NCBI RefSeq assembly: GCF_003591005.1
Contig: NZ_QYYD01000011.1
Span: 62,001-126,000 of the forward strand
DNA from: Rhodopseudomonas palustris
Lineage (GTDB): Bacteria > Pseudomonadota > Alphaproteobacteria > Rhizobiales > Xanthobacteraceae
Reading direction: 5' to 3'
Length of the DNA: 64,000 nt
The notes under the pieces are model-generated. The model ran no database searches. It was not told the origin of the DNA and saw only the letters and a list, made by a program, of their open reading frames with translations. Below are positions 8,202 through 40,052 of the stretch, piece after piece. The translations under genes and the position numbers were made by a program. Within the stretch, counting starts at the first letter, position 1, and each line of letters opens with the position of its first letter.

Positions 8202-8887
8202 CCATGACCCCCAAACAAACTCTGATCATGTGGTGCCTGCTCGGCCGCCAGGGCCAGGCGATGCAAGGCGAGATCGTTCCCAAAGTCGAGAAGACGGACC
8301 GCGAGGCCCTGGTGGCCGAGCGGCTGATCTCCAGCACCAAGATCGGCCGCTCGATCGGCCTCAAGCTCGAGGACAAGGGCTGGGCCTGGGCCGGCCAGCA
8401 TCTCGGCGACGAACTGCCGAAGAACTATCAGGTGCTACAGCAATGGCTGGCGCTGCTGCAGCAGCATCTCGACAAGAACGGCGAGACGCTCGCCGACTTC
8501 ATCGGACAGGCGCCGGACTGGCCGCCCGCTGCGTCCGCGAAAGACAAGGCACCGAAGCGTAAGAGAACTCCGGCGCCGCCGCGGCCGCGCGAGCCGAAGC
8601 CTGCATCCCCGCCGACGCCGGAGCAGGTGCGGGCGCGGATCGAGCAGGCTTATTTGACGATTACCAATGGCCGCCGGGGCGAGCCCGTCGCTTTAGGCAA
8701 GCTCCGCGCCGAGCTGCCCGACCTCGACAGCGCAACGGTCGATGCCGCATTGCTGCGGATCCACAAGACCGAACGCGGCGCCGGGTTCGGCCGCAACGAC
8801 GATCCCAAAGATATTTCAACTGACGAGGCCCACGCCGCTTTCAGCGCCGGCGGCGATCCATATCACTTCATTTGGTTTCAGGCATGA
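8198..8887 (+). CDS. Small winged-helix-like protein, second gene of the cassette
   Basis: The 229-residue product (227 if started at ATG 8204) is not a family I recognise. Residues 1-70 look like a winged-helix fold (TPKQTLIMWCLLGRQGQAMQ, then LVAERLISSTKIG). A basic Pro/Lys-rich linker covers about 108-145, and a second small helical domain with an IEQAYLTITNGRRGEPVALG segment follows. The charge and fold suggest DNA or partner binding, possibly target recognition for the adjoining ATPase; this is an inference. It overlaps both neighbours by four bases, so stoichiometric production of the three proteins is likely. Confidence 0.75.
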   Translation: MTMTPKQTLIMWCLLGRQGQAMQGEIVPKVEKTDREALVAERLISSTKIGRSIGLKLEDKGWAWAGQHLGDELPKNYQVLQQWLALLQQHLDKNGETLADFIGQAPDWPPAASAKDKAPKRKRTPAPPRPREPKPASPPTPEQVRARIEQAYLTITNGRRGEPVALGKLRAELPDLDSATVDAALLRIHKTERGAGFGRNDDPKDISTDEAHAAFSAGGDPYHFIWFQA

Positions 8888-23312: not shown

Positions 23313-24178
23313 CGGCTGTCCTCGATGCTGGTGGTGATCGCGTGCGCGACCTTCAGCGCCTGTGCGGTGGCGGCGACGTCGTGGGCGCGGATGATCCGCG
23401 CGCCGTTCTGCACCGCGATCAGATGCGCCGCAAGCGAGCCGCCGAGGCGGTCCTTCGGCTCCGACGGCACGACCGTGCTGATAAAACGTTTGCGCGAGGC
23501 GCCGACCAGGATCGGCAGACCGAAATGCTTGAACTCGGCGAGCCGCGCCAGCGCCATCATGCTCTGCCGCGGCGTCTTGCCGAAGCCGATGCCGGGATCG
23601 AGCACAATGTGAGTGTCGGCGATGCCGGCACGCGCGGCGAGCGCCAGCGAGCGCGCAAAGAAGGCGTCGATATCCGCGATGATGTCGATCGCCTCATCGA
23701 CCGCTTCGCGGTTGTGCATCACCACGAGGGGCGCGCCGTGCGCGGCGACGACGGCCGCCATCTTCGGATCGCGCTGCAGGCCCCAGACGTCGTTGGCAAT
23801 CGACGCGCCGTTGGCGAGCGCCCAGTCGACCACCTCGGCCTTCATGCTGTCGATCGACACTGGCGCGCCGAGCGCCGCAACAGCCGCAAGCACCGGACGC
23901 AGCCGCTGCAACTCCTGTTCGGCCGAGACCGGCTGCGAGCCATAGGGCCGCGTCGACTCCGCCCCAATGTCGATGATATCGGCACCCTCGGCAATCATCC
24001 GCGCGGCATGCTCGCGCGCGCGCTCCGGCGAGATGAAGTCTCCGCCATCGGAGAACGAATCCGGGGTGATGTTGAGCACGCCCATCACGGCCGGCACCGG
24101 GCGCGCCAGCAACGCGCGCAGCGGATGGGACCGCGCCGCTGCGGTCGGTGTCGCCGGAATGTGCTGCGCCGCGCTCAT
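23309..24178 (-). CDS. folP: Dihydropteroate synthase
   Basis: Started at 24178 the product has 289 residues (an ATG at 24247 is an alternative). It condenses p-aminobenzoate with dihydropterin pyrophosphate. Signatures are GVLNITPDSFSDGG, the pterin-site IDIGAESTRPYG, SIDSMKAEV, DPGIGFGKT and VGASRKRFIS. The first 35 residues are an unconserved leader. It heads the fol operon and is divergent from the MFS transporter gene, with 182 bases between the starts. Confidence 0.96.
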   Translation of the reverse strand: MSAAQHIPATPTAAARSHPLRALLARPVPAVMGVLNITPDSFSDGGDFISPERAREHAARMIAEGADIIDIGAESTRPYGSQPVSAEQELQRLRPVLAAVAALGAPVSIDSMKAEVVDWALANGASIANDVWGLQRDPKMAAVVAAHGAPLVVMHNREAVDEAIDIIADIDAFFARSLALAARAGIADTHIVLDPGIGFGKTPRQSMMALARLAEFKHFGLPILVGASRKRFISTVVPSEPKDRLGGSLAAHLIAVQNGARIIRAHDVAATAQALKVAHAITTSIEDSR

Positions 24179-24360
24179 GCCAGCGCTTTGCGCGGGAAGC
24201 GGCGGACTGTCAAGCGGGGCAGCGTGGGGCCGTTTGCCGGTGGCCATTCGACGGCCGACGTGTGGTTGCGACCAGAAAACAGCAGCAACGAACCACACGC
24301 GGACATCGGCCGCCGGACGTGATATGCGCAGCCAGCGCTCCAATAAGAAGAGGCAGATTC

Positions 24361-25620
24361 GTGGAAGCAGGTCGAAAAGCTCCGGGCGAGCGCTGGTCAT
24401 CCTGGACCATCATGCTGTGCGCGGCGGCGATCCTGATGATCACGATGGGCATCCGGCAGACCTCCGGCCTGTTCATCGATCCCATCAACAGCAGCACGGG
24501 CCTCGGCATCGTTGCGATCTCGTTCGCGCTGGCGATCGCGCAGTTCGTCTGGGGACTGGTGCAGCCGCTGTTCGGCGCCATCGCCGACAAGCACGGCCCG
24601 CGCGCCACGCTTGTGAGCGGAGCGCTGCTGCTGGTCGCAGGCCTCGCGCTGACGCCGTTCACGGTCCACTCCGAATGGGGCCTGGTGCTGACCATGGGGA
24701 TTCTGACCGCGGCAGGCGCGGGCGCCGGCAGCTTTTCGGTGCTGATCGGCGCCAGCGCGCAGCGGCTGTCGCCGGATCGGCGCTCGTTCGCAGCGGGCTT
24801 TATCAACGCCGGCGGTTCGTTCGGCCAGTTCGTGTTCGCTCCGTTTGTCCAGGCCGTGATCAGTTCGTTCGGCTGGGTCGTCGCCATGTTCGCACTGGCG
24901 GCGAGTGCGCTCGTCACCATTCCGCTGAGCTGGCTGGTCAGCCGCGATGTCCCGGCACAGCCGGCCGCCGATCCGCTGCCCTCGTCAGACCTGATGGCGC
25001 AGATCCGCACGTCGATGCGTGATCGCAGCTATCTGTGCCTGCACGCGGGCTTCTTCACCTGCGGCTTTCACATCGCTTTCCTGGTCACGCATCTCCCCGG
25101 CGAGGTGGCGCTATGCGGACAGTCGGCGGCGGTCTCGGCCACGTCGATCGGTCTCATCGGCCTGTTCAACATCGCCGGCAGCCTGTGCGCCGGCTGGCTC
25201 GGCAACTTTTGTCGGATGAAGTACATCCTGGCCGTGATGTACGCGAGCCGGGCGGTGATCATCGCGATCTATCTGGTGTCGCCCAAAGACCCGATCACGT
25301 TCTACGTGTTCGCAGCGGCGCTCGGCTTCACCTGGCTCGCCACCGTGCCGCCGACGGCCGGGCTCGTCGCCAAGCTGTTCGGGACGCGCTATCTGGCTAC
25401 ACTGTTCGGCCTGACGCTGTTGTCCCACCAGATCGGCGGTTTCTTCGGCGCTTGGCTGGGCGGACTGGCGGTGGCGCGCAATGGCGATTATCAGTTGATG
25501 TGGTACGCCGATATCCTGCTCGCCTTGTTGGCGGCTTTGATCAATCTTCCGATCCTCGAGGCCAAAGTGCGAATGAGCGCGAGCGACAGCACCCACCGTG
25601 CGGGCGCGTCCTCCTCCTGA
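24361..25620 (+). CDS. Major facilitator superfamily transporter
   Basis: GTG at 24361, eight bases after an AGAAGAGG ribosome binding site, gives 419 residues; the open frame upstream runs antisense through the folP leader. About twelve hydrophobic helices are visible, with the MFS loop motif GAIADKHGPRATLV between TM2 and TM3 and a large charged loop near residue 210. The pattern (SGLFIDPINSSTGLG, then RRSFAAGFINAGGSFGQ) resembles the monocarboxylate/oxalate-formate antiporter-like branch. The substrate is not inferable from context. Confidence 0.9.
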   Translation: MEAGRKAPGERWSSWTIMLCAAAILMITMGIRQTSGLFIDPINSSTGLGIVAISFALAIAQFVWGLVQPLFGAIADKHGPRATLVSGALLLVAGLALTPFTVHSEWGLVLTMGILTAAGAGAGSFSVLIGASAQRLSPDRRSFAAGFINAGGSFGQFVFAPFVQAVISSFGWVVAMFALAASALVTIPLSWLVSRDVPAQPAADPLPSSDLMAQIRTSMRDRSYLCLHAGFFTCGFHIAFLVTHLPGEVALCGQSAAVSATSIGLIGLFNIAGSLCAGWLGNFCRMKYILAVMYASRAVIIAIYLVSPKDPITFYVFAAALGFTWLATVPPTAGLVAKLFGTRYLATLFGLTLLSHQIGGFFGAWLGGLAVARNGDYQLMWYADILLALLAALINLPILEAKVRMSASDSTHRAGASSS

Positions 25621-25759
25621 CGAAGCTCGCATCTGCGCTGGCCGCCGCGAACGTCATGCTGACCGGCAATCGCCAACTCATGTTCAGCGTCGGGATTCAG
25701 ATTGCCGTCGTTAACGACTGTGGCGGCCAGGCTCCTCGAAACGTTGCTTGACTTGCGAA

Positions 25760-25774
25760 GAACATAATGTGAAC
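25760..25774. promoter_or_regulatory. LexA (SOS) box
   Basis: GAAC-ATAATGT-GAAC is a perfect match, read on the other strand, to the alphaproteobacterial LexA operator GTTC-N7-GTTC. It lies 34 bases before the next ATG, overlapping where a -10 element would follow TTGACT (25748-25753). Confidence 0.75.
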
Positions 25775-25807
25775 ATTCTTCGCAGTTCGAAGCTTGGAGG
25801 TGGTTAG

Positions 25808-26056
25808 ATGGCGGATGTGACTTACTACGTCGCGCTGCCGTTTCGGGCGTCGGACGACGGCGTCGTGGCGGGTGAGCCGGCGGAGTGTCAGAGCGCCAGC
25901 GGGGCGATCAGGCGGGCGGAAGCGCTGGCACGGCTGGCCGAGAATGCCGGGGCCGTAGCGTTCAGCCGAACCGGTGATCCGTTGATCGGCGAGTTTCAGG
26001 ATGCGGTGTTGATCAAGGCGTTTGGCGAGGTGCCGAGCGAGTTCGCGGGATTCTGA
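25808..26056 (+). CDS. Small SOS-linked protein of unknown function (82 residues)
   Basis: ATG at 25808 follows the ribosome binding site TTGGAGGTGG. The product is soluble and predicted alpha/beta: a strand-rich start (DVTYYVALPFRASDD), a helix with alternating charge (AIRRAEALARLAENAGAVAFSR), then GEFQDAVLIKAFGEVP. I recognise no named family, but the codon usage and pattern look like a true gene. The perfect LexA box in its promoter suggests induction by DNA damage. It is monocistronic: the next genes are on the opposite strand. Confidence 0.78.
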   Translation: MADVTYYVALPFRASDDGVVAGEPAECQSASGAIRRAEALARLAENAGAVAFSRTGDPLIGEFQDAVLIKAFGEVPSEFAGF

Positions 26057-26124
26057 GAGGCGAAGTCGCGAACGAGCGATTTCAATCTGTGGCGAGTTGA
26101 AGGACGTCGCCGCTTCCACACGCC

Positions 26125-26208
26125 GTCATGGCGAGCGTAGCGAAGCCATCCAGCTTCGTGCACGGCGCGTCTGGATTGCTTCGCTGCGCTCGCAATGACC
26201 GCAATGAC
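26125..26208. repeat. Family B palindromic repeat
   Basis: GTCATGGCGAGCGTAGCGAAGCCATCCAG pairs imperfectly with CTGGATTGCTTCGCTGCGCTCGCAATGAC; the GCAATGAC end is duplicated. Four copies of this family occur in the window. Confidence 0.8.
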
Positions 26209-26221
26209 GATGCCCGGGCGA

Positions 26222-26629
26222 TTAGTAGCTGATCTTCAGCGGCAGCTTCCGGGCCTGCTCGATCAGCTGTCCGACTTCCTTTTCGGACGGCAGGGCGCGC
26301 AGCAATTTGCGCTGCAGGTTGGCTTCTTTCATGTTCTGCGCCAGCCGCGCCGGGTTGCGGTGGGTGAATTCGCGCAGCGTGTTGACACCGGCGGCGCGCA
26401 GCAATTCGGCTTTGGCCTTGCCCATGCCGGGGATGCGCATGCAGTCGGCGATGTTGGCCCATTCCAGCAACTGCTGCTCGCTGAGGCCGGTCTTGGCGGC
26501 GAGTGCCTTACGTCCGCGCGTCGTTTTGGCGGCTTCGAGCAGGGCTTCGGTGGTGCGGATGCCGACGGATTTCAGCTTGGCGGCTGCTGCTGTGGAGATG
26601 CCGTCAATCTGGGAGATAGGGTATGTCAT
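26222..26629 (-). CDS. DUF4332 helix-hairpin-helix protein
   Basis: The 135-residue product is all-helical and carries two tandem hairpin units: QIDGISTAAAAKLKSVGIRT at the start and CMRIPGMGKAKAELLRAAGV near residue 63. Each has the G-x-G/hairpin geometry that binds DNA non-specifically or mediates protein contacts in DUF4332 proteins. No catalytic motif is visible. It is followed on the same strand, in transcription order after the next entry, with a 19-base gap, so the two small genes probably form an operon. Confidence 0.85.
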   Translation of the reverse strand: MTYPISQIDGISTAAAAKLKSVGIRTTEALLEAAKTTRGRKALAAKTGLSEQQLLEWANIADCMRIPGMGKAKAELLRAAGVNTLREFTHRNPARLAQNMKEANLQRKLLRALPSEKEVGQLIEQARKLPLKISY

Positions 26630-39980: not shown

Positions 39981-40052
39981 GTCATTGCGAGCGCAGCGAA
40001 GCAATCCAGCGCCGCGCTCGGAACTGGATTGCTTCGCTGCGCTCGCAATGAC
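39981..40052. repeat. Family B palindromic repeat, short form
   Basis: GTCATTGCGAGCGCAGCGAA ... TTCGCTGCGCTCGCAATGAC: a nearly perfect long hairpin between the convergent DUF6456 and sufE genes, where it could end both transcripts. Confidence 0.88.

Follow-up and report, generated by a model that had tools for sequence, protein, structure and literature searches.

Gene B, which encodes a small acidic protein of 82 residues in the window (the whole 64-kb stretch of DNA that was analysed, G000:C2:62001-126000, from a genome of 5.62 Mb in 91 contigs), is in all likelihood a LexA-repressed SOS gene and would represent a new family of the LexA regulon. We put the probability of this reading, which is based on sequence comparison, at about 0.9. 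Judging from its conserved operator, B is very probably a real and undescribed part of the SOS response in Bradyrhizobium-like bacteria. An undescribed SOS gene had been suspected at this position in the initial annotation, and that suspicion is supported by the conservation of the box, by the boxes at classical SOS genes and by the absence of any family match for the protein.

Gene B and its operator site

The features of the locus are given below in order of position.

25748..25753, plus strand: -35-like hexamer TTGACT, about 6 nt ahead of the SOS box (read from the sequence)
25754..25784, no strand: perfect inverted repeat with 9-nt arms (25754-25762 and 25776-25784) flanking the SOS box (lost beyond the closest relatives)
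25760..25774, plus strand: SOS (LexA) box GAACATAATGTGAAC, GAAC-N7-GAAC, or GTTC-N7-GTTC on the other strand (sequence, conservation upstream of homologues, like boxes at SOS genes of the genome)
25771..25776, plus strand: possible -10 hexamer GAACAT, 17 nt past TTGACT; weak, 3/6 against the consensus (placed by spacing only)
25796..25800, plus strand: ribosome binding site GGAGG, 7 nt ahead of the gene B ATG (read from the sequence)
25808..26056, plus strand: gene B, 82-aa acidic small protein, ATG start, stop included (ORF, homologues, alignment, structure model)

The initial annotation described a perfect GAAC-N7-GAAC box that overlaps the promoter of a monocistronic gene. The box is present on the plus strand, with 33 nt between it and the ATG, and the hexamer TTGACT directly precedes it. 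A promoter scan of positions 25600-26240 found no sigma-70 consensus pair, which suggests that gene B has either a weak -10 element or one of a different kind. On the same strand, the preceding ORF (24148-25620), presumably a transporter gene, stops 187 nt ahead of the gene B start and the downstream ORF (26222-26629) lies on the opposite strand, so that the gene does look monocistronic here. Of the 61 boxes placed 15-130 nt before a B start, 34 have TTGAC no more than 25 nt further upstream, and the common form of the site upstream of B homologues is GAACAAAA-N-(G/A)(A/G)-GAACAT. A larger hairpin operator was rejected because the inverted repeat with 9-nt arms is absent in more distant relatives.

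Perfect GAAC-N7-GAAC sites occur three times in the window, compared to a mean of 1.49 in shuffled sequences, and three or more were found in 22/100 shuffles. The other two sites, at 8411 and 17633, are contained in long mechanical ORFs (229 and 541 aa). The site count in the window alone is thus weak evidence and not beyond chance. Genome-wide, 113 perfect sites were counted versus 60 for the reversed pattern.

Between gene B and the downstream ORF that converges on it, positions 26122-26202 form a palindromic repeat whose arms are 32 nt long. A second copy is found at 39981-40052, and the arm motif does not appear in shuffles. The repeat resembles a dispersed palindromic element and might act as a transcription terminator.

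Conservation of the box upstream of B homologues

The nearest named relative of B is from Rhodopseudomonas infernalis, with 96% identity. Single-sequence searches found relatives in 5/16 genomes of the genus and in 140/296 genomes of the taxonomic family Xanthobacteraceae, and 43 named loci in a genome collection. In profile searches, 79/347 genomes of the host's order and 10/385 genomes of a class sample matched, 7 of the latter from outside the order. These counts indicate that the B family is largely confined to the host's order.

A perfect box in either orientation lies within 700 nt upstream in 103 of the 116 profile hits in Xanthobacteraceae loci. Restriction to a score of 40 or more left 114 hits, and 112 of them have a full 700-nt upstream stretch. 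In these, the box was found in 101/112 loci versus 9/810 control windows from the same loci, although it should be mentioned that the rows are related rather than independent and that several loci represent one genome twice (e.g. L002/L061, L009/L063 and L017/L067). The reversed motif was present in 0/112 homologue stretches and 12/810 control windows. When counted by distinct protein, 92/104 are boxed, and at least one boxed copy of B occurs in 19 of the 21 genera examined. The initial annotation had proposed conservation of the box upstream of orthologues as a check, and the counts in loci and genera bear it out. Considering this conservation in relatives, the SOS box before gene B is not a chance occurrence.

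Elsewhere in the order, a box lies within 450 nt in 30/54 loci versus 4/194 control windows; these 54 derive from 55 loci taken among the matches listed, with L246 left out for its unreadable start. A perfect box is missing in 11/112 Xanthobacteraceae loci, in 24/54 loci elsewhere in the order and in 7/7 outside it. In the genus and order counts, a row was scored as unboxed even if a second hit in its locus is boxed (L163). A tree of 162 distinct B proteins places 75 boxes in the 78 rows of the window's clade. In contrast, 0/9 rows are boxed in a supported sister clade (98/95) that extends outside the order (L161, L229, L231, L240, L242, L196, L197, L198 and L199), and this clade may retain an earlier function of the fold that is unrelated to the SOS response. 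To see whether the box was gained only once, its changes of state were counted on the tree; they number 19, compared to 39.9 in shuffles, in a tree built from few columns with many forks unsupported.

The same box at SOS genes of the genome

Perfect boxes also precede genes of this genome that we take to be lexA (L053), recA (L119), uvrA, ssb, imuA, radA, rmuC and comM, as well as a radical-SAM gene that presumably encodes a photoproduct-lyase-like protein. Scored with the motif derived from the B sites, radA reaches 35.4, the window site (L037) 27.4, ssb 26.9, imuA 23.4, rmuC 21.4, recA 19.9 and comM 19.0, versus 9.7 for uvrA and 4.4 for lexA. Of the 113 own-genome sites, 100 were listed and 50 loci were read; since 20 of these 50 had been picked for an A+T-rich spacer, the resulting list of SOS genes is no blind sample. 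The second-highest own-genome score with the B-derived motif belongs to a perfect box GAACAAATTAAGAAC at G000:C26:3004-3018 (L116), before an unrecognised ORF of about 142-159 aa.

The Caulobacter SOS operator is described as GTTCN7GTTC in the parts of the sources consulted (PMC12700426, PMC9578287), and comM and dnaE are listed there as SOS genes (PMC3323433). In the sections seen of the regulon survey of multi-chromosome alphaproteobacteria, parE, tag, comM and dnaE are given as extra members, and no B-like family is among them (PMC3323433). Gene B resembles this alphaproteobacterial LexA regulon in having the GTTC-N7-GTTC operator in its promoter region, kept upstream of orthologues, in a genome whose putative lexA and recA are boxed as well, although the lexA box fits the B motif poorly. 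It differs in that its product belongs to no named family.

A dnaE-like gene of the same genome is preceded by a 32-33 aa peptide (G000:C9:10851-10949; L302, and L051 from 1553) with two SOS boxes 18 nt apart. The peptide looks by eye like a single membrane span and matches in 85/119 Xanthobacteraceae genomes. In its best 20 loci, a box is found within 150 nt in 20/20 and two boxes in 19/20, versus 0/160 control windows. The peptide may correspond to SidA, the division inhibitor of Caulobacter.

Protein B

Protein B has no match among the families of Pfam, NCBIfam, PHROGs and PADLOC, in agreement with the earlier remark that no known SOS gene was recognised in it. A Pfam scan at E up to 10 returned DUF1007 only, with an E value of 0.21, and a sequence search against solved structures returned three sequences up to E 10, the best at 0.11. 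In annotated plasmids the gene is labelled 'hypothetical protein'. No literature on the family was recognised from titles and the starts of abstracts, and an earlier notice is possible.

The structure model has a mean pLDDT of 89.1 and shows strands at residues 4-15, 18-21 and 25-27, a helix at 30-41, and strands at 48-57 and 67-73. The best conserved stretch in the alignment of the family is GAVAFSRTGDP..GEF.DA. A Foldseek search with the model gave no match at E 0.001 or better in the PDB or among viral models; the best viral-model match, at E 7.2e-3, is an uncharacterised phage protein, and the best VIA-align score is Z 4.3. The model predicts an α/β fold, and the small acidic protein has no recognisable enzyme domain. 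The pI of protein B is 4.3, and the median pI is 4.36 in 128 box-bearing members of the family versus 4.85 in 46 members without the box.

DUF6894 (PF21834) is likewise a small protein of the same bacteria, and 2/54 B members match it at E up to 0.1. However, the profile-profile comparison gives a probability of 0.6% over 31 columns, the window protein has no match at E up to 10, and a separate DUF6894 gene exists in the window genome. DUF6894 was rejected as parent family on the profile-profile probability. A prophage origin came into question because a small unnamed gene precedes many of the homologues. It was rejected as well, since phage records gave no match, PHROGs gave none and the small upstream gene is gene A, described below. 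A scan of viral contigs for B returned 25 pattern matches and no confirmed relative.

Partner gene A

B homologues without a nearby box are preceded by a small gene, A, which carries the box upstream of it. Gene A lies within 700 nt upstream of B in 63/114 rows, of which 62 are boxed, and B stands without A upstream in the other 51, of which 40 are boxed. Among 30 fetched A loci, 22 have no B in the fetched stretch; a box is found within 400 nt in 17 of these 22 versus 0/110 control windows, and the A loci with B are boxed in 8/8 cases. In six loci (L147, L149, L182, L183, L225 and L228), the two genes point away from each other, with one box between them.

Gene A matches in 25/199 genomes of the order. 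The scanned A proteins have no Pfam match above the cut-off and no NCBIfam match, and the structure model of A consists of two helices, with a mean pLDDT of 78.7. No A adjoins B in the window genome, whose only A-like gene is a distant one on another contig, without a box.

Gene neighbourhood

Ku, named from the annotation in a plasmid record, is found in 8/178 loci. Seven of these are Bradyrhizobium-like, with Ku divergent from A-B (L011, L014, L018, L096, L125, L133 and L141), and in L159 it lies downstream of B. Due to the divergent arrangement in the seven loci, the box before A might also control Ku. A survey of 148 neighbouring ORFs at E up to 1e-5 detected Ku in 4 and SRAP in 4. SRAP was placed in L148 and L149 only, and ten further neighbour ORFs that were checked do not include the remaining SRAP. 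Since Ku or SRAP lies nearby in only a minority of loci, we treat the connection to break repair as a lead rather than as a result.

A peptidase S24 gene lies upstream in L156 and L158. In many Bradyrhizobium loci, the unit has genes nearby that we take to be purE-, purK- and GGDEF-like; their clusters occur in 44 to 61 of the 107 loci.

Proposed role of B and alternative explanations

In an undamaged cell, LexA would bind the box just past the -35 hexamer and thereby block the gene B promoter. After damage, RecA on single-stranded DNA would promote the self-cleavage of LexA, and gene B would be induced along with recA, uvrA and imuA. Being acidic, protein B is less likely to bind simply to DNA than to have a partner protein. 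Most probably it acts on the damage response by binding one of the other proteins involved; our best guess is an acidic protein-binding accessory of damage repair. Where A adjoins B, B probably acts with the helical protein A, because both are boxed when alone, they form one unit in many Bradyrhizobium-like genomes and they share a divergent box elsewhere. Given Ku and SRAP beside some copies, a task of B close to double-strand-break repair is our best current guess, held tentatively and as less likely than not. Equally tentative is the broader proposal that A and B are the two components of one SOS effector system, not yet described, by which Hyphomicrobiales would act on broken DNA ends; Ku and SRAP would take part in some lineages, and B would work alone in genomes such as this one.

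Two alternatives concern the operator. The box could be a chance match ahead of an ordinary small protein or a spurious ORF, as the three sites against 1.49 expected in the window, two of them inside long ORFs, would allow. This explanation is rejected as extremely improbable, being contradicted by the conservation upstream of homologues (101/112 loci versus 9/810 control windows) and by the presence of the protein in nearly half of the Xanthobacteraceae genomes (140/296). It is also conceivable that the repeat is read not by LexA but by another regulator whose operator is similar, and that gene B answers another stress. The site is tied to LexA by sequence similarity alone, and the box is missing from some copies of B, both within the order and outside it; however, the same motif stands before the presumed recA, lexA, uvrA, ssb and imuA of this genome, which makes such a regulator very unlikely.

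The other alternatives accept LexA control and assign a different task to the protein. DinI is a small acidic SOS protein of enterobacteria, and B, with 82 residues, a pI of 4.3 and putative SOS control, might by analogy bind RecA filaments and tune the response. The likeness is one of size, acidity and control as generally known for DinI; B has no sequence match to the DinI family in Pfam at E up to 10, and the lack of any Pfam match better than E 0.2 implies no sequence relation, so that we consider this role rather unlikely. A toxin-antitoxin pair under SOS control would account for two small genes forming one unit in 63/114 rows. Unlike in type II systems, however, the adjacency of A and B is not obligatory: B occurs without A within 700 nt upstream in 51/114 rows and without adjoining A in the window genome, and A occurs without adjoining B in 22/30 fetched loci, which leaves such a pair improbable. 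A division inhibitor of the SOS response would suit the control and small size of B, by which it resembles SidA, the SOS division inhibitor of another alphaproteobacterium, Caulobacter. In the part of the source seen, SidA is described as having 29 residues and residing in the inner membrane (PMC4211646), whereas B is predicted to be a globular protein of strands and helix. The boxed membrane-type micropeptide of the same taxonomic family is a better candidate, and this function of B appears even less probable than that of a toxin-antitoxin partner.

The combination of a conserved operator with a protein that has no known relatives points to a damage function that could not be deduced from the E. 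coli model. The copies beside Ku make the link to end joining directly testable. If induction is confirmed, two small protein families would join the SOS response across a large bacterial group with soil, symbiotic and phototrophic members.
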